A model generated the notes under the pieces. That model was not told the origin of the DNA. It worked only from the letters and a program-made list of their open reading frames with translations, and ran no database searches. Positions 20,528 through 62,866 of a stretch of DNA of 64,000 bases are shown piece by piece. Each line of letters opens with the position of its first letter. The first letter of the stretch is position 1. Where the stretch lies: NCBI GenBank assembly GCA_037179385.1, contig CM074188.1:17253318-17317317 (forward strand), given 5' to 3'. The position numbers were made by a program, and so were the translations under genes. Origin of the DNA: Holothuria scabra (Eukaryota; Echinodermata; Holothuroidea; Aspidochirotida; Holothuriidae).

Positions 20528-20778
20528 TAGACGAATCTGATTAGCGTTTGTTTTTAGTGACTGTAGGCAGCCATTAGTGGGGTCCATCAGCCTTTAATCG
20601 TCTTCATTTATTGTCTACGTGAACTTCAGATCCTTAAATTCAGTGAAGTTGAGAAAACCAAGATACACTTCAGTGTACAACCATCCATGGAACAGGTAAG
20701 GAAAGAAATTTAAAGATTGAAGGACCCCAGTAATGGCCGACTAAAATCAGACCATCACAATCCGTCCGGATTCGTCTA
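20528..20778 (+). mobile_element. MITE family 1, copy 1
   Basis: About 251 bp. It begins TAGACGAATCTGATTAGC and ends GGATTCGTCTA, so the termini are inverted. It shares AGTGACTGTAGGCAGCCAT, TGGGGTCCATC, ACAACCATCCATG and TGGCCGACT with the copies at 23761, 29309 and 30054. All four lie in the same orientation. It has no coding capacity. The target duplication is unclear and could be TA. Confidence 0.75.
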
Positions 20779-23521
20779 TGTTCTAATTCAAACGGACAAA
20801 AGAGGATGTTACTCTTCCGTTAGTCCGTAACCGGGTATACTGACATGCCAACACCCCTTTCAGTTGGCATTATTGCTCTTATATCAAAGCAATATCACCC
20901 CACCCCCACCACTAGTATTCTTTCATCTGTTACCTTATATTTACGATATTTTTTATCAGTAACATTTTAACTGTTCTGCAGCATGGATATATAAAGTAAG
21001 ACTTTATTTTCTCAAATTGCAATCGCCACAAGCAATATTTTCGTTTTCTGACAACAGGGTAAAATAAGTTAATTTTATCATCTGAGGCGAACTTACTCTA
21101 GGGGGACCCCACCGGCCCTCATCTTTCTTGACCTTCGAACCCCAAATCTAGTTTTCATAAAAAAAAAAAAAAAACTTACAATATGGCAGGTCTGCAATAT
21201 GGAACTATTATTTGTTCCCTATTTACCGGTGGTGTTGCTCGTGCACCATGACTTCGAGTCGATCTTGGCATGTTCATGCCTTCTATAATCTGTACCTTAC
21301 CACATACTTTGGTAACTTGATCATTCTTTTTAAATTGCACTACCACAACAACCATCGCATTTATAGCTCACCCGCTAAATGCCTCTGAATACTTCTTACA
21401 CAATTTCTTGGATGGAATAAGCTCCATCTCAGGTAATGCCATCGAAAGAAAATTGTATTCTTAATCCCTTCAACATCAGTGTTGTGACAGGTCCAACAAT
21501 ATCCTCTTAAAACTGTGTTGTCTTCCCACTCACTGTCAATTAGCTTGCCCCTGGTTACCTCGTCTGTGAAAATTACGGGACTACTTAGGGGTCGTTTATA
21601 CTTGTCAAAGGTGGGGGAAGTTCAGCAACATCACAGAAATTTCACCTAAGTAAATAGAAATCTGGAGTCTAAAATATATTTCATCTACCATAACCCAATT
21701 TTTAATTGTCATATAAGGAATCCGCAACAGGAAATCAAGATATTGCGATGTTCAACCACAATAAAATAATTTTGTTATTATCGGAGTTCCAAGTATGTCG
21801 CGTGCAGAATTCCGTACTTTTTAGACAGTTTCTGTCAAATTCTGTTGCTTCCCCAAACACTTCGTTTGAAGTGTTTACCATATTATGACAATGGCGCTCC
21901 CCAATCGGACATAGTTCATCCGCTAGACAGTGTGAGGTCGACAAACTGTAAGCAGATTAGGAACAAAAGAAGTTGACACTTTCAATCTAGGAGAATTTTG
22001 GGAGAGAAAAGTTCCTTTTCCCAAAAATATCAGTCTTGGAACATTTCTTTTGGGGAAGATTTTCTCAGAACCGTTTGTTGTCATTAATCAACTTTCTGGT
22101 GGAAAGGTTTTGTCGAAGATAAGGGTATTTATTAGTTACTGGCATTTCGGACCATTCAAATGACAGCAAAGTGCATAAAGAAAAGCTTATCTGGTCAGCT
22201 TACTTTGGGGAAAGAAACGAAACTGCCATCCAGCGGAGGTTTAAACCCACAACTTCTGTTATACTGTTGTATTGCGTTCTTTTTCAACTCTTTTTTCACA
22301 TATTCCTGTGTAATGTTAAGCCATGTGTGAGAGTTTTTTCTTCCGTTTCGAGTTTAACCATGCCATTAACAATAGACACTCTACTGCAACACAATGTCAA
22401 ATTGGCCATTATCTATTAAAATTCAACTCCAACACGCCTAAGTAAATAATCACCTAAGGAAGTGGATACTAGCCTATATTCAACTACAACCCATGCGTAA
22501 TACGCGCAAACCGATCTTCATCGAATAATGCGCATAGCCTGCACTTTGTATTTAATAACCAATGAGGAGCGAGCGATGCAAATTATATTACTTCTAGTAA
22601 CAAGTACGACAATGAATTGGTTTGCAACAGAGGTGCTATTACCTGAAAAAATCACATTACATGCTAAACTTGGCTAAAATCAAAATTGATTCTGAAGTGC
22701 TGTGGGCCACCACTGGGACAAGAATCACGGGGCCGTTACTATGGATCGTTTATTGTAAAACTGTACATAATAGCCAAAAAATCATTAATAAAATACAGAA
22801 CTTCAGACGATATCTGTGTGGAATAAAGACACAGTAGATTCAATGCCAAAGTTTTTAAACGTGGACCGGAAGGGAAACATATCCCAACAATTGGGACCTC
22901 GCATATGTAGGTACGAATAGTGTATATCGTGTCAAACTTTCCGTTAAACTATTTAAGGTTCTTTCCAACAAGCTAGGCTCCGCCACCTGTAGAAAGGACA
23001 TTTTGAAATATACACTTAAAGTCGTTTGGGAAAGGGACCTCTGCACGTTCCATATAATTTTTACAGGATGGGACTCCACCTCATAATTGCAACATTGAAG
23101 AGAGCCGTAGTCCGTTCACAGTAGCCTGATTGTCTAACTATTCCATCGTACACTACAAAAATTTGTCTATAGATTTCCATAACAAAAATTAAAGAAATAT
23201 ATGAAGAAGACGAAAAAGTGCTGTCAATTGGTTTCCAAAAATTGACAGCCCCTTTCCATTTTTTCATCATTTTTTATCTGTAATTCGACAACATGTCTGT
23301 GACATTTCTTACATTGTACATTAGCGGTGGCACCAGAGTATAATGGCCGTGTGGTCCTACATCTCAGTTTCCGACAGTCTTGTGTGTATAATTTTGTGAA
23401 ATTCAGAATTTCCATGTATAAGATGAAGAAGAATATTTAAGTAGTTCATATCTGTTGATAATTTTATAAGCTAATATTTATTTGTCATATTTCATTTAAC
23501 AAAATCACTTGGTACGAAAGC
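20779..23521. other. No gene recognised
   Basis: Contains a 16-bp A tract (21159-21174). Open frames are short and show no domain. No element ends are visible. Confidence 0.4.
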
Positions 23522-23600: not shown

Positions 23601-23760
23601 CGCCCACCCACAGTACACAAAATTAATAACAGTACGAAAGGTCACATAGCAATGGTTTTGATGAAAATTTGATCCTATTTGCAATTATTTTGAAAAGCTG
23701 AAACAAAATTTGTATCGAATCAATTGGTGGAAGACAAGTTCTCTCTGTCACGGTCCATAC

Positions 23761-24017
23761 AGACGAATCCGATTAGCGCTTGTTTTTAGTGACTGTAGGC
23801 CGCCATTAGTGGGGTTCATCAGTCTAAAACCGTCTCTATTTATTGTTTACATGAATTTCAAACCCTCATATTTAGTGAACTTGGAGAATTTAAGATACAA
23901 ATAGGTGTACAACCATCCATGATACAAGTAGGCAAGGAAATCGAAAGATTTAAAGGTGATGGACCCCAGTTATGGCCGACTGAAATCAAACCATCACTTG
24001 CTGTCCTGGTTCGTGTA
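23761..24017 (+). mobile_element. MITE family 1, copy 2
   Basis: About 257 bp, clearly homologous to 20528-20778 throughout. It begins AGACGAATCCGATTAGCGC and ends GGTTCGTGTA, and keeps CTGTAGGCCGCCATTAG and ACAACCATCCATGATACA. The inverted ends are slightly decayed. Confidence 0.75.
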
Positions 24018-24824
24018 TAGCAGCAGCAACTGCATATCAGATAATTTATATCTCGGTTGCCATTACAATCGATTTATGTATTATAAGACGGGTTTTTAGG
24101 TTAAACCATAAAACCAGCGTCCGATAAATGATTAGTATATGGTAAAATCCTCTGCTTTAGGCTTTAATGATATTTATTAACAATTATTTATTACCAAAAA
24201 ATTTGTTGTAAACATTATGCAAATATATTTGACACGAGGCTGTCTAGCAACAAACAAAAAAAAACTGCGAGAAAACTTTGTAAGAACTAACGAGGACAAT
24301 AACATAGAGGGGTGAAAGGTATGTCAAACTGAAAAAATCTCATTGAACGTTTATGGCTTCCTTGTATATTTGTTGCAATAAATATAGGCCTATTCTATAA
24401 CTACATAGAGTTAAAATGGTGAGTGTGGGCATATAGTTTCAATTCCTCACTTTGCAACGCAAACTTCAGAAAAACCAAACGTTATCAACCATAAACCTAA
24501 AGACGTGATTTATTATCGATTTTAGCCTGGGCACAAAGCCCATGGAAAATGACTGGACAATCATTAGACTGTTAGACAGTGAGTAAAGTAAAAGTGCGGA
24601 TTCCTTTACAGCTATAGGCTCTGAAACAGAGCGGTACGGTAGCGGTTGACTGGAAGAAACACAGAGACCGCCTCCGAACAAACATTGAAATATATAATAA
24701 TTACGTTTTATTATAAAGTTCACGTGGTGCAAACTTAAATAATGGAAAAATATGCCGCAAAATGGCAATATTTTGAAATTAAGTTAATCACACTACTTTT
24801 TTCAACATTGTGTAAGCGAGCCAA

Positions 24825-26490: not shown

Positions 26491-29308
26491 ATAAAAGGTA
26501 ACGTTGAAAAAAACGGTTCACAAATATGGTTCAAGTTCAAGTTTGGTTTCAAATGCAGTTCTTATCTTATTGTCTGGTGATAGGAGAGAGTTCTATGACG
26601 TGATTACTGTATGGTGGTCAGTATTATTTTTTGTATCGGTTATTGATTGATATTGATTATTTAGAGATATAGAATAACATGCAAACGCTCAAACGGAAAG
26701 AGTTCACTTTTGTTTGGTACATGTCTTGAAATAATTCATTCACACAAACTTGTATAAATACATGTGTATCCACGATTTTTCTTACGGGCCATTTTTGGAG
26801 AGAAACGTTATTGTTATGCTTTTTTTATTAAAAGTATTTTTTATATGACAAAGCTTTTATTGTCTGTGAATTGCGAATGTCCCTTATAAAACAGTACCGA
26901 AACTTCCTTTTAAAGCCGAGGAAAAGAGCAATTACCGCAGGGTTTCTTTGAAGTAACAGCTAAATCTCACAAAATTCTTATTTCTCTTTCAAATATCTAT
27001 TCTGATATTTAAGGACTTAAACATTGCATAAATTGATATTCACTGTAACTCAATGAGTTTATCTTGATAATGTTCACAATTAAGTGAGAAAAAACAGAGA
27101 GTCACATGACTAGAGAGAGCCAATCATGACCCAGAATAGACTATTACTCTAATATAGATTGATGTGACTGTATTTTCCCATTTGGGACGGGGTACTTTCA
27201 GCCATAGCATAGACCACCCCCTTTCCTGCGTGTCGGAATGCAGATACCTCATCGAATGGACCGGTGTACCTCCTAGATGGGATCACAACATAGTTCAAGT
27301 ATTAAGAGAGGTATACGCATTCAGTTCTTTTACATGCACCGACACGAATTTAACCCCCATGAAGAACATTCCTATAGACCTATCAGCCTTTTGAAATGTT
27401 ATTGTTTCAAATGTGGTCATCACATCAAAAAAGAATCTTTTGTGTGGGATCACATAACCTTACAAGCCTGGATTAAGGGGTCTTAGAGAGAAACCCTGAA
27501 ACTTCGAGGTGCTTTCAAAGTAAAGAATCGACTCTAGCCCTGTTTAGACAAGTTAAATTGAACTAAAGAGGCTGGGTTGTCAGGGTGTCTGTCGTGGGCC
27601 TCGGATGCAACTAATCCAATTAAATTACCTTTGTATAACGATATCCACATTTTGCACACTGAACGGTAACAGACACTGAGCGAAAATTGGGCAGCTTTTC
27701 TTTCCTCAAAGAAGTCACTGTTGATTAAAGGAACACAATGGGAAGAAAGAAACCTTAGCGTATCTTACCTATTGTTCGGTTGATACGCTTTAGAGGATAA
27801 AGCCAGTCGTTCAATGGGTTTCATTTTCACTTAGCTTAATACCGGTTTCGGCTTTTGACTGGTCCCGATAACAAAGGAGTAAATGTCGATGTGTCTGGTC
27901 CAATGCGAGAGTGAGGTTTGACGTACCTCTGCTCGACTTGGCCCAAAATTTCCCCATGGGACATTTCAAGTCTTTGCAGGGACCCTTAGTGAAAGAAACA
28001 GACCAATCTATCGATGCAGATTGGTCAATAACAATTTAGGGATTGTGTGTTTTCTACCTTTAAGCGTTCTTTGCATATGTTCAATAGGGTGATCATGTAA
28101 GCAGGAACTTTCATGGGCTTCACTAATACGTCTGAACCACAATGAAGACTTGTCTGTTATGGGGACTAAATTTTACCTAAATTAACTGCTTCCAAAAAGA
28201 AGCCGACGATTACAGGCCATCACTGAAGTATTTTTGAGACTTGACAAACAGCGATAACAAACTGGCGAGACACAAATTTAGGTCTATCTCAATAGATGTA
28301 TTTAGTTGTGTTCTCAAGCCATGCCATGAGTCCATATCCTCCCAAAACAAGAGGCTACGTGATGGCCATCGACTTGTCTGCTTGGCCGGCGTCTGCAGCA
28401 CTCAGCCACAACATAGATATTCCTGTACAATGCACATGTATCCTACAGCAATTCCTCATCCGAGCTCCACACCAGGCAGAGTTTGTGTCCCGCCGTTTTT
28501 CATGAACACTTCATGTACGCTACGAACTTACGATCAACCACATGAACCAGTCACCATATTCTTGCTCATGCGATTGTGCAAACTAATGCTTCAAGCTACA
28601 TTCCGGCACAACATGGCAAACAGTATACTTGATCAAGAATCACACCAGTATACTTCCTTGTTTAGTAAGGTTTGGTGCTGTTTAACGGAATGGCCTTGCT
28701 CCCACCCACCTCATGCCCAGCCCCGTCCACTATTAATATGTTTTACCTTTTGGATGTGACGGTGCATTGTTTCGTGCTTATATCCTCACGTTTTTTAGGT
28801 TAACTAATTTTAGGATCACTTTCCAGTGTTCTACAGACTCCACCAAATGTATATTGCCCCTGATGTACAAGTTTAAAACCCAGCATTTACAAATTCGATT
28901 ACATATTAAATGTCAACAAGGCGTACAGCCACCCATGATTCTCATGGAATTTATTTTTTTCAGAAGCGAAGCGCATACTTATACACATGTAGAAAAATTC
29001 GGTTTCAGTTACTCTCAGTTGTACCGTCAACACTATGTAAAATCGGCAGCTCGTATATTCGTTACGTGTATAACTATAACATGATAATTTTTTAACATGA
29101 TAAAATTTAAAGAGATGTTTTCAGTCAAATTTAAACAGATAATTTTTCAGTCACCACGTATGCTTGCAGAGCTGACCACTCTGCAGTGACCCTTAGCAGG
29201 TAGTTCTTACTCCCCGCCCTTAGCAAAGTTGTACTTTCAAGAGTAACGAACGATTTAAATACATTACTATCGGAGCTACAACAGTAGCACCATACATCAG
29301 CCACCTAA
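26491..29308. other. No gene recognised; one 172-codon open frame
   Basis: The longest unexplained open frame of the window lies here (28241-28759, + strand). It has no recognised domain, signal peptide or repeat, and its amino-acid order looks random. A frame of this length is expected about once by chance in 64 kb of this composition (my rough estimate), so I do not call it a gene. Confidence 0.35.
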
Positions 29309-29562
29309 AGACGAATGAGATCAGAGCTTGCTTTTAGTGACTGTAGGCAGCCATAAGTGGGGTCCATCGTCCTTAAATCGTCTTCATTTATTGTCTACGT
29401 GAATTTCAAACCATCATATTCTATAAGTTGAAGGAATTAAGATACAATTTAGTGCACAACCATCCATGATACAGTAAGAGAGGAAATTGAAAGATTAAAA
29501 GGTGATAGACCCAGCTATGGCCGACTGAATTCAGACCATCACTTGATGTACGGATTCGTCTA
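29309..29562 (+). mobile_element. MITE family 1, copy 3
   Basis: About 254 bp. It begins AGACGAATGAGATCAGAGC and ends CGGATTCGTCTA. It shares AGTGACTGTAGGCAGCCAT, GTGGGGTCCATC and ACAACCATCCATGATACAG with copies 1 and 2. Confidence 0.75.
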
Positions 29563-30053
29563 TATAGAGAAACAACATTTTATTTTTTTTGAAAAGTAGG
29601 AAGTTAAACCACGTTGAATCATGGAAGAAGTATCGTACGGTTGGATATTGCAACAGTTCTCTCAACGTGCAAACATCTCTAATAAATGGCAAAAATTGCC
29701 CTTCAGCATATGGCCCTTATATTATTTAGCGACCTTTTTTCTAATTTGAATGGTTTAAAATACCAATGCGCCACTGAAGAATACTCTTAGTCACATGTAA
29801 GAACATTTCGAAGAACGCTTGGTGGGTTTTGTATAGCACCGGTATTTTGTTGTTGTAAGTCTAAAACATGCAATAGGTTATATACCAGTACGTTAGCTGC
29901 ATGTCACCATAATGGTATCAAATTTAAACGAGTTAGGGAACTTGGTTCAAAACATACGGTAAATATTGAGAAGTTATTACTCTTCATTCCGAGGTGAAAT
30001 TGTGAGATTTTTAATTTTAGTGATGCAAAATTAATACTGCATCAACTTAAATT

Positions 30054-45069: not shown

Positions 45070-46320
45070 CATTTTATCTGGTAATTTTTTCATGAAAATA
45101 GCGACAGGTAGATCCCCCACAAGCCTGGAAAATGTCATTTTCGTGTGTCTGAGGGGTCCGATTTTTCATCATTTTCTGTTCGCTCCGCGGAAACTAGTGG
45201 TGGCGCTCCGCGTAGATAGTCTTCCTAGCTGACTTAAGGTTTCAAATGACCATTTTTTGCAAATGGAACCTCAAAAGAAAGGACTAATTAGATCCTCCTA
45301 TGACCCTGGGAAATGCCATTTTCGACTGTCTGGGGCATCCGATATTTAAAAAATTTCTGTACGCTTCCCCCCCCCCCCCAACTAATGGTGGCGCTCCGCT
45401 TAGTTTTTCTGGCAAACGTTTGTTAAGCAGTAGTTAGCGTTTATCTGCAATTGAAAACTTTAAATAGCGACTGATGAGATTTCCTTCATTAGCCTGGGAA
45501 ATGTCATTTCCGACTGTCTGAGAGGTACGGATTTTCAAAGTTTTCGGGACGCTCCGCGCCAACCAGAGGTGGTGCTCCACTTAGATTGTCTCTCGGGCAG
45601 AATTACATTTGGGGGGGGGCAAAAATCTTTTGCCCCACACTTAAATGCTCCCCTTCCCCTATGGAAATATCTTACACGGACGTGTACTGGAGCAGTTGAT
45701 TGCAACATGCAGCAGGATTTTGGATTTGCAATCCTAGCGTCCATAGTCCAGTGGAGTGATGCATACTAGAGCTAATTAGTATCTAAAAGGTGTGTTTCAA
45801 TCTGAGAAAAATCGCAAATTTTTTCTCATCAGAACTAAAGACAAGTAAACCTGGCAAATGCAATTTCCAGCCACATGGGAGGTGTTAAAGAGGCTCATTG
45901 AGTTGATATCGATAACTAAATGAGAATCTCAAAGGGCCTCTGCCACATAACAATGCGTATAGTTAGCATAACAAGTCAAGTTTCAAGTCCAAAAGTCACA
46001 GAAAACGCTCAAATTTTGAATTTTCTAGTGTCCTTACTTGCAACGGTTTTGTACATAATTTGAAAAAGTGTCTCGTCACATTTTTTTAAAACCGACTTCA
46101 ACCGTCAAGTACTCCCTCATGAAACAGTTATTTGTATGTAAGGTATGGGGATTGTCTCAGATTGACCATTTGTCATTGGTATATGTGAAGAAAAATTAAC
46201 AGGTTTGGAAAAATTTGTTGAATATCATGAACCAACTCAATAAGCCGCTTTAAAATCCAAAATTTTCTTTGTACGCTCCGCGCTAGCTGATGGTGGCGCT
46301 ACGCTTAGATAGTAAACTTC
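45070..46320 (+). repeat. Degenerate ~182-bp tandem repeat
   Basis: Each unit has CCTGGGAAATGTCATTT, CGACTGTCTGAG and GGTGGCGCTCCGCTTAG in that order. The last box begins at 45199, 45387 and 45568, so the period is 181-188 bp. A fourth unit runs from about 45835 and is split by the MITE at 45889-46249, resuming to about 46310. An insertion of about 175 bp (roughly 45600-45780) lies between units three and four. A stray diverged unit occurs at 55920-56040. Confidence 0.75.
45885..46253. mobile_element. TTAA-flanked MITE family 2, copy 1
   Basis: The 361-bp element 45889-46249 begins AGAGGCTCATTGAGTTGA and ends with the inverse TCAACTCAAT..CCGCT. TTAA precedes (45885-45888) and follows it (46250-46253). 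The flanking sequence on both sides is one continuous tandem-repeat unit, so insertion into a single TTAA can be read directly. TTAA targets are used by piggyBac and Kolobok transposases; which applies is unknown. Confidence 0.8.
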
Positions 46321-48873: not shown

Positions 48874-49242
48874 ATAAAGGGGCTCATTGAGTTGAAATCG
48901 ATGATTTAATGAGAGTGCTAGAAGGTCACTACAACATAACAATTCTTCTAGTTAGCATAAAAAGTCAAGTTTTATGTCAATTAGTTAGGACAAAAGTGAA
49001 AAATTTGGAACTTTGTGGTGTGGTGACTTGTTACTGTTATGTGCATAATTTGAAAAAGTGTCTGGTCACAAATTTTTGAAAACCGAATTGAAACATGAAA
49101 CACTCACTCATTAAACGGTTATTTTTGAATAAAATATAGGGATTGGCTAAGTTTGACCATTTGTCATTGATATGTGAAGAAAACTTAACAGGTTTGGAAA
49201 AATTTGTTGAATTTTACGAGTCAACTCAATGAGCCCCTTTAA
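48874..49242. mobile_element. TTAA-flanked MITE family 2, copy 2
   Basis: The element 48878-49238 is 361 bp, the same length as copy 1, and homologous throughout. It has AGGGGCTCATTGAGTTGA at the left and the inverse TCAACTCAATGAGCCCCT at the right. Shared inner words include AATTTGAAAAAGTGTCT and ACAGGTTTGGAAAAATTTG. The right TTAA is intact; the left has mutated to ATAA. Confidence 0.8.
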
Positions 49243-52463: not shown

Positions 52464-52695
52464 AAATAGACAGACTTCTCGGCCTCTTGGATAACATCAT
52501 GTGAAGTATCTGTTCTTTTCAGCAAGTCTAGAGTGGAGCCACACATGGCAGACCAAAGAGGTAAATGGTTTGATGGTCGTGAGGTTGGTCAAGTGTTATC
52601 CGTCAAAGGGACTTATCTTTGGGAAGCAGTTTAAAGTTTGGTTTCGCCGAACGGCCCTTTGGCAGAGGGTCGGGAAGACGTTGTAAAAAGACAGA
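52464..52695 (+). mobile_element. U2-snRNA-headed SINE, copy 1 with TSD
   Basis: The element spans about 52475-52684. The head (52475-52522) reads CTTCTCGGCCTCTTGG and then GTATCTGTTCTTTTCAG, matching the 5' end of U2 snRNA from about nucleotide 5 to 50. The ~160-bp body is not U2 and is shared with the copy at 62666-62866. AAATAGACAGA (52464-52474) and AAAAAGACAGA (52685-52695) flank it, an 11-bp duplication with one mismatch, the mark of LINE-type retroposition. The U2 branch-point recognition word GTAGTA reads GAAGTA here, so this is not a functional U2 gene. Confidence 0.75.
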
Positions 52696-53975: not shown

Positions 53976-54498
53976 CTCTTACCTTACCTATCCTCTTCGT
54001 GCCGAGTGGAACATAAGGCCTTCACGCTCTTTCTCCAAGAAACTCTATCCCTTGCCTGAAACCTTGCTTCATCCCAAGTTCTCCACCCAAACTCCTTTCT
54101 TTCGATTTCTACTGTTCTTCTCCATGTTGTTTTAGGTCTTCCAACTCTCCTTCTTCCTTCAGGTTTCCATGTCAATGCAGTCATACAGTAGCTTTCCTTA
54201 TCTTTTCTCAATAAGTGACCCAACCAATTCCATCTTCTTCTTTTCACTTCTTGGCTGATCTTCTTCACTTGAGTTACCTCATTTAATTCATCACAGAAGA
54301 TGACATTTGGCCAAAATATTTGCATGATTCTTTTAAGGCACTGGTATTGAAATGAGTCCAGTTTCTTTTCATCACTATTCATTTTCCAGGTTTCGCAACC
54401 ATAAAGCAAAACTGGTCTTACAATGGTTTTGTACAGTTTAATTTTTGTTTTCCTGTTAAAATGCTTCGACTTCCATACTTTGTTTAACTTTGTGAACA
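53976..54498 (-). mobile_element. RTE-like LINE, 5'-truncated 3' end
   Basis: On the - strand an uninterrupted frame encodes the C-terminal part of a non-LTR reverse transcriptase, about 170 residues. It includes KTIVRPVLLYGCETWKMN, RRRWNWLGHLLRKDKES, GRRRVGRPKTTWRRT and a terminal ALCSTRHEEDR before TAA. The catalytic palm and endonuclease are absent, so it is a dead 5'-truncated insertion. The stop lies within 11 bp of the element end, with a GGTAAGGTAAG-like tail. A very short 3' UTR and simple-repeat tail are typical of RTE-type LINEs. The frame continues artificially into the flanking repeat. Clade assignment is from recalled motifs. Confidence 0.85.
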
Positions 54499-54609
54499 AT
54501 TTTGTTAAAGGATCCCTTACTGAAGTTATGTGGGACGTGTCTCCAATTTTCATGTGTGCATATAGGCCACGGACTTCCTATATACATGGACAGAGCATGC
54601 AACGCGGAC
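54499..54609 (+). repeat. 111-bp direct repeat, right copy
   Basis: Partner of 53865-53975. Its right part (54568-54609) is also the left terminal repeat of the element at 54568-54973. The LINE insertion therefore came after that element. Confidence 0.85.
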
Positions 54610-62665: not shown

Positions 62666-62866
62666 ATCCTCTTGGCCTTTTGGTTAAGATCATGTGCAGT
62701 ATCTGTTCTTTTCACCCAGTCTAGAATGGGGCCATACATGACAGACCAATGGTGTAAACAGTTTGAATGCTGTGAGGTTGGACAAGTGTTGTCCTTCAGT
62801 GAACATAACTTCTTTGGGGAGCAGTTTGGTTTGTCCAAACTGCTCTTTGCCAGAGTGGCATACATG
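62666..62866 (+). mobile_element. U2-snRNA-headed SINE, copy 2
   Basis: The head (62666-62714) reads ATCCTCTTGGCCTTTTGG and then AGTATCTGTTCTT, closer to U2 snRNA than copy 1. The body matches copy 1: AGTCTAGA.TGG.GCCA, CAGACCAA, TGTGAGGTTGG.CAAGTGTT and GCCAGAGTGG/GGCAGAGGGT. Near its end GCAGTTTGG and CCAAACTGC form a perfect 9-bp stem (62821-62843). The branch-point word GTAGTA reads GCAGTA. Target duplications are not clear. It lies in intron 2 in the sense orientation. Confidence 0.72.

Follow-up and report, generated by a model that had tools for sequence, protein, structure and literature searches.

The window analysed here, a stretch of 64,000 nucleotides on contig C10 of the host genome (1.19 Gb in 31 contigs), contains two copies of a short interspersed element (SINE), referred to below as U2-SINE, in which a head derived from U2 snRNA is fused to a body that is not U2. 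In copy 1 the head occupies 52475-52523 on the forward strand and corresponds to host U2 nt 5-53 with 45 of 49 letters identical; the body, a hairpin tail and a terminal AAAAAG follow at 52524-52690 on the same strand, as delimited by alignment with 39 genomic copies (body match 84.9%). The head of copy 2, also on the forward strand, lies at 62670-62716 and corresponds to host U2 nt 7-53 (43/47 letters identical), and its body extends over 62717-62855 (body match 81.3% over 62716-62855). When the window was compared with itself the two copies aligned over 194 columns with 76.8% identity (E = 2e-34). Against the Rfam U2 model copy 2 scored 49.2 bits and reached the gathering score, and copy 1 scored 28.2 bits (E = 6e-4) and missed the gathering score of 46; convincing U2 sequence in both copies is limited to the first ~50 nt. 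The first-pass annotation of the window, made from the letters alone, had described such a pair with a common U2 head and a common non-U2 body, and the alignments bear this out, except that copy 1 ends at about 52690 and the annotated end at 52684 falls short of the AAAAAG.

A duplication scan identified repeats on the forward strand at the two ends of copy 1, AAATAGACAGA at 52464-52474 and AAAAAGACAGA at 52685-52695, the latter overlapping the A-run. The 11-bp duplication that had been annotated is therefore present at both ends but imperfect, with one mismatch and a score of 8. A score of at least 8 was also obtained by the same method in 20 of 243 mismatched flank pairs, and the repeat of copy 1 sits exactly at both ends of the element. 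The 3' end of copy 2 has been lost, or has diverged beyond recognition, and a search for a duplication around this copy was negative. The branch-point word GTAGTA is missing from both window copies, as had been noted, but the family consensus retains it, as do the consensus sequences of all three subfamilies described below; its absence thus reflects decay of these two copies, and a lost branch-point word was rejected as a family trait. Elsewhere in the window, a 197-aa open frame on the minus strand at 53984-54577 resembles by eye the C-terminal part of a LINE reverse transcriptase, and further repeats (45886-46253 with 48875-49242, and 20529-20779 with 23758-24019 and 29306-29564) are 79-82% alike.

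The frequency of the head in the genome was estimated from the occurrence of an exact 27-mer, host U2 nt 7-33, for which the reversed control gave 0. It was found at 765 places genome-wide, 72 of which were within the host U2 array on contig C1. Among the matches listed, 28 places outside the U2 array, all on C1, were taken as a sample chosen by the head; 26 of these carried the U2-SINE body (one of them, L107, being a divergent form with a body identity of 72%), one carried the body of a related sister SINE (L101) and one was a U2-SINE split by a LINE (L093). At 26 of the 28 places U2 sequence ran from nt 1-5 through nt 49-53 and was followed by the body. Two pairs in this sample (L091/L092 and L117/L118) have common flanks and are probably duplicates. 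A search with copy 1 gave 2471 first-look candidates, the best 40 of which were scored, yielding 41 rows; 39 were fetched, namely all but the window copy and one piece of 34 bp, and all 39 carried the U2 head, the query itself having contained the head. A search with the body alone gave 0 first-look candidates, probably owing to the skipping of common words at that step. Pieces of the body that are truncated at the 5' end and lack the head do exist, beside L024 and L018. Given that the exact 27-mer is lost in diverged copies, for example in both window copies, the true copy number is larger than the 765 places suggest. It had been considered that these two copies might be the only ones, or that the body might mostly occur without a U2 head; instead, hundreds of exact heads and thousands of first-look candidates were found, and the head-chosen sample joined the head to this body in nearly every case. 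The genome search that had been proposed recovered 5' ends anchored at the U2 start, flanking duplications and a common tail, in agreement with the annotated retroposed family with an snRNA-derived head.

The consensus of about 225 bp opens with U2 nt 1-51/53, continues into a body that contains short hairpins and closes with a hairpin tail of ~55 nt and AGAAAAAG; the start and the tail are common to the aligned copies. The head carries the host U2's own letters ATCATGTG and TTTTCAG, and has TTTT runs at nt 15 and 46. The fold of the mixed consensus was better than those of 200 out of 200 shuffled sequences (z = -5.0); the prediction pairs consensus nt 5-21, within the U2 head, with the tail over ~17 nt. 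Scores for Pol III A and B boxes in the U2-SINE were no better than those of shuffled sequences, and an internal Pol III promoter may not be required of SINEs with snRNA heads. End repeats with a score of at least 9 were present in 18/41 copies as compared with 11/243 control pairs, and a second count with other limits gave duplications at 22 of 69 loci, L101 included. The repeat lay no more than 3 nt from the U2 start in 16 of these 22, at 8 nt in L115, and at 38-44 nt in five. Among these five, the repeats of L017, L018 and L098 are strong, and those of L010 and L025 may be due to chance. A related leader (~GAGCACAGCTATC-CGAAGATGTTAAGG) was observed upstream of the U2 start in L014, L017, L020, L032, L098 and L117/L118, and in L017 and L098 the duplication lies outside this leader.

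Based on diagnostic letters, 66 copies were divided into three subfamilies of 28, 18 and 20 members, L093, L101 and L107 being left out. The subfamily consensus sequences did not differ at any of 46 sites in the head, as compared with 10, 6 and 8 differences over ~167 sites in the body; the probability of an unchanged head across the three subfamilies arising by chance is about 0.05, which is borderline, and no weight was placed on it. Divergence within the subfamilies, calculated from the copies of the copy 1 search with the two window copies excluded, was 0.8/1.1%, 3.5/3.6% and 5.9/6.5% for head/body, and in the youngest, with ~1% divergence, 6 of the 28 copies are equal to the body consensus. 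The U2-SINE is a large and recently active family with a U2 head.

The sequences at the 3' junctions were examined in 67 copies with an aligned tail, which gave 58 distinct readable junctions. A G directly followed the A-run in 52/58 junctions, and this terminal G was followed by TA in 18/52 (background 8-9%, p about 2e-7) and by TAT in 10/52 (background ~2%, p about 2e-7), TAT being absent in the remaining 42/52. The U2 gene itself reads G-TAT-CTG at the site where, as described below, it is entered by other retroelements. In L023, L034 and L095 the G lies outside the duplicated target, as does GT in L009, L037 and L115; these letters may derive from the RNA, as read-through from a source embedded in U2 would give. 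The letters that separate the A-run from the duplication do not fit U2 in some copies, among them L041 (TTAC), and the constant terminal G may simply belong to the end of the element itself. Six U2-SINEs (L024, L035, L041, L044, L097 and L108) were found at neighbouring positions of one repeat, possibly because of a target preference. Two U2-SINEs located on different contigs (L030/L123 and L039/L124) have upstream flanks that are 92% alike over ~790 bp, as would be the case if the U2-SINE either rides in a longer repeat or has struck it twice.

The host U2 genes, located with the Rfam U2 model (best 46 scored), form a tandem array on C1 with a unit of ~726 bp. Within the array stretch that was read (C1:4285001-4415000) 80 U2 units start at nt 1, 70 of which are uninterrupted and 10 interrupted. 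The inserts are a 5.36-kb LINE (LINE A) in five units, a 5.69-kb LINE (LINE B) and a third LINE (LINE C) in one unit each, an 85-bp LINE A end in two, and a SINE of ~210 bp in one. Only the start of LINE C, and no 3' end, lies inside the stretch read. On the 5' side of the inserts U2 is retained to nt 29-50, and on the 3' side it resumes at nt 35/36 in all nine interrupted units with a 3' end, the 3' flank being GTATCTGTTC in 9/9. LINE A has an ORF1 with zinc knuckles and an ORF2 with an APE endonuclease (PF03372) and a reverse transcriptase (PF00078). The relatives found for LINE A are either unnamed or members of groups other than Keno; the best one with a name comes from Holothuria leucospilota (48% over 67%). 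A region of ~15 kb without U2 was observed inside an array spacer (C1:4353917-4369496, L084-L086), and by eye its ends look like inverted repeats.

In the comparison with the 3' ends of host LINEs that had been suggested, the LINEs end in AAAGAAAA(G) and the U2-SINE in TTTAGAAAAAG; only ~8-10 nt, AGAAAA(A)G, are common to the U2-specific LINEs and the U2-SINE. No long common tail was seen, and no LINE was seen to carry the hairpin tail of the U2-SINE, LINE A and LINE B having a tail other than that of the U2-SINE and the sister SINE.

The sister SINE was found within a U2 gene at C1:4396538, flanked by the duplication GTATCTGTTCT. It has a head piece of its own and a U2-like stretch (TTCTGTTCTATTCAGCCAGTCTAGA), and its body and tail are homologous to those of the window U2-SINE. 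Its dispersed relative L101 consists of U2 nt 1-43 and the sister body and has a 15-bp duplication. The U2 head thus ends at nt 51-53 in the U2-SINE and at nt 43-46 in the sister SINE, in both cases just 3' of the insertion site. These junctions (51-53 and 43/46) agree with the positions expected if an insertion at nt 35/36 had produced a short duplication, and given that two head junctions only were observed, the argument from the junctions rests on few events. No U2-SINE itself was found inside a U2 gene in the assembled array. Tails of the sister SINE were observed at most 60 nt upstream of L019, L027, L043, L044, L047 and L114, and farther upstream of L024.

The U2 site is interrupted in the heads of three dispersed U2-SINEs (L030, L093 and L109), and in two of them the insert is proven to be a LINE. 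In L030 (C2) U2 sequence to nt 40 is followed by a 1.67-kb 5'-truncated LINE, whose ORF2 is 47% identical in amino acids to LINE A over residues 653-1108, and then by U2 nt 35-51 and the SINE body. In L093 (C1) U2 to nt 44 is followed by an insert of 213 bp that matches the end of the L030 LINE with 95% identity, and then by U2 and the SINE body. In L109 (C8) the U2 head is followed by a 237-bp insert, of which only the last 31 nt resemble the L030 LINE, and then by GTATCTG, U2 and the SINE body. Such an insertion occurred at 1 of the 28 head-chosen places (L093). A similar-looking end (AAAGAAAA) is present in a U2 relic at C1:5.467 Mb (L110), which had no match to the LINEs found here and is labelled a LINE end from its last letters only. 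L039, in which U2 nt 1-29 stands directly before another U2-SINE, was not counted as a fourth site-specific case because its 3' side lies in an apparently decayed tail.

LINEs and a sister SINE thus occupy one site in the U2 array, the U2-SINE has a fixed junction just 3' of the same site, and LINEs have struck the heads of dispersed copies. The U2-SINE appears to be part of a guild of retroelements for which the U2 gene serves as a landing site, and the elements inserted in U2 genes suggest how an snRNA head can be acquired. In the reading we favour, to which we assign a probability of roughly 0.6, a SINE body entered a U2 gene by means of the machinery of a U2-specific LINE, took over the start and the promoter of that gene and spread. 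The body would have been inserted just after nt 35/36 by an APE-type, Keno-like LINE specific for U2; the U2 promoter would then yield an RNA consisting of U2 nt 1 to ~53 and the body, and this RNA would have been retroposed genome-wide, preferring (G)TAT sites that resemble the one in U2. The heads of the dispersed copies retain the U2 target and are themselves struck by U2-specific LINEs. It is accordingly likely that the U2-SINE head came from an insertion into a U2 gene and likely that U2-specific LINEs mobilise the U2-SINE, and we infer that its transcription is, or was, from U2 promoters.

The main rival, possible although we consider it unlikely, is template switching: a reverse transcriptase copying SINE RNA would have jumped to U2 snRNA near nt 53 and copied it to the 5' end, the fused copy being the founder of the family and the U2 genes never having been entered. 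Chimeras of LINE cDNA and snRNA, above all U6, are known, the extra 38-44 nt that separate the duplication from the U2 start in L017, L018 and L098 may come from such jumps, and no U2-SINE was found in the assembled U2 array, which is consistent with a family founded in this way. Against template switching, both head junctions are found a short way 3' of the place where U2 is entered, rather than towards the 3' end of U2, the sister SINE was caught inside a U2 gene, and the dispersed copies favour a U2-like TAT. An improbable alternative is that the link to U2 concerns the head only. The SINE would owe its mobility to an unrelated LINE that has the same hairpin tail, TAT would reflect a weak preference of that LINE, and the LINE insertions in SINE heads would be incidental hits of a U2-specific LINE on U2 sequence. 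In favour of this alternative, SINE tails usually derive from the LINE partner (PMC7245038), and the tail of the U2-SINE and its sister differs from that of LINE A and LINE B; yet the sister SINE, with the same kind of tail, is inserted at the exact U2 site, and the insertion preference of the dispersed copies matches that site. The idea that there is no family but only a pair of U2 pseudogenes or a chance chimera, which the Rfam label of U2 on the copies might suggest, is already refuted by the 765 head 27-mers, the same body and junction in 26 of the 28 head-chosen places, the three subfamilies and the excess of duplications over the control pairs (18/41 versus 11/243).

A further proposal, which we put forward tentatively and hold to be somewhat less probable than its opposite, is a self-renewing cycle between SINE and gene, in which the U2 gene is entered by means of the machinery of U2-specific LINEs, the 5' end and the promoter are taken each time, and the dispersed copies sow new U2 targets for use by the helper LINEs. 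Such a cycle, if true, would explain the acquisition of the head and the re-heading of the sister SINE, as well as why the U2 heads stay the same while the bodies differ and how an element that lacks an internal promoter is transcribed. How SINEs acquire heads from RNA genes is an open question, as is the transcription of SINEs with snRNA heads, given that U2 genes have no internal promoter. One assembled genome here holds the proposed donor U2 array, a candidate helper LINE with open reading frames, a sister SINE in a U2 gene and a young dispersed family, and insertion into an snRNA gene can therefore be tested directly against template switching. The U2-SINE also carries the target site of U2-specific LINEs to dispersed positions, and LINEs of this kind have made use of it there.

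Two groups of LINEs that insert in U2 genes have been described (PMC4640811): Keno, which is of the APE type, and Utopia, which has a restriction-like endonuclease and in crocodilians includes families also found at U2-like sites outside U2 genes. As far as that description goes, LINEs A, B and C are like Keno in being located in U2 genes with a 3' flank from GTATCTGTTC, and LINE A also in its APE domain, the likeness being one of site and domain. On the same account Utopia and the LINEs found here have the same 3' flank in U2, whereas LINE A has an APE domain in place of the restriction-like endonuclease. Keno elements are LINEs, whereas the element in the window is a SINE. No SINEs derived from U2 or other snRNAs outside crocodilians were found among the titles and abstracts listed in literature searches, which does not prove their absence. 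What is new here is that 10 of the 80 host U2 units are interrupted and that the U2-SINE is linked to insertions in U2 genes.

For the SINEU elements of crocodilians, Kojima reportedly described in 2015 a repeated addition of U1 and U2 heads, a preference for a repeat as target and mobilisation by LINEs of the Tx1 group. SINEs with U1 or U2 heads in crocodilians are on record under this name (PMC8010984, PMC7245038). Like the U2-SINE, SINEU elements have an snRNA-derived head, and the U2-SINE conforms to this type in that its 5' end is anchored at the U2 start and its head is fused to a common body that does not derive from an snRNA; SINEU elements differ in their host and seemingly in their body. 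Unlike in the case of SINEU, a U2 gene with a sister SINE in it is here seen together with the proposed donor U2 array and the U2-specific LINEs.
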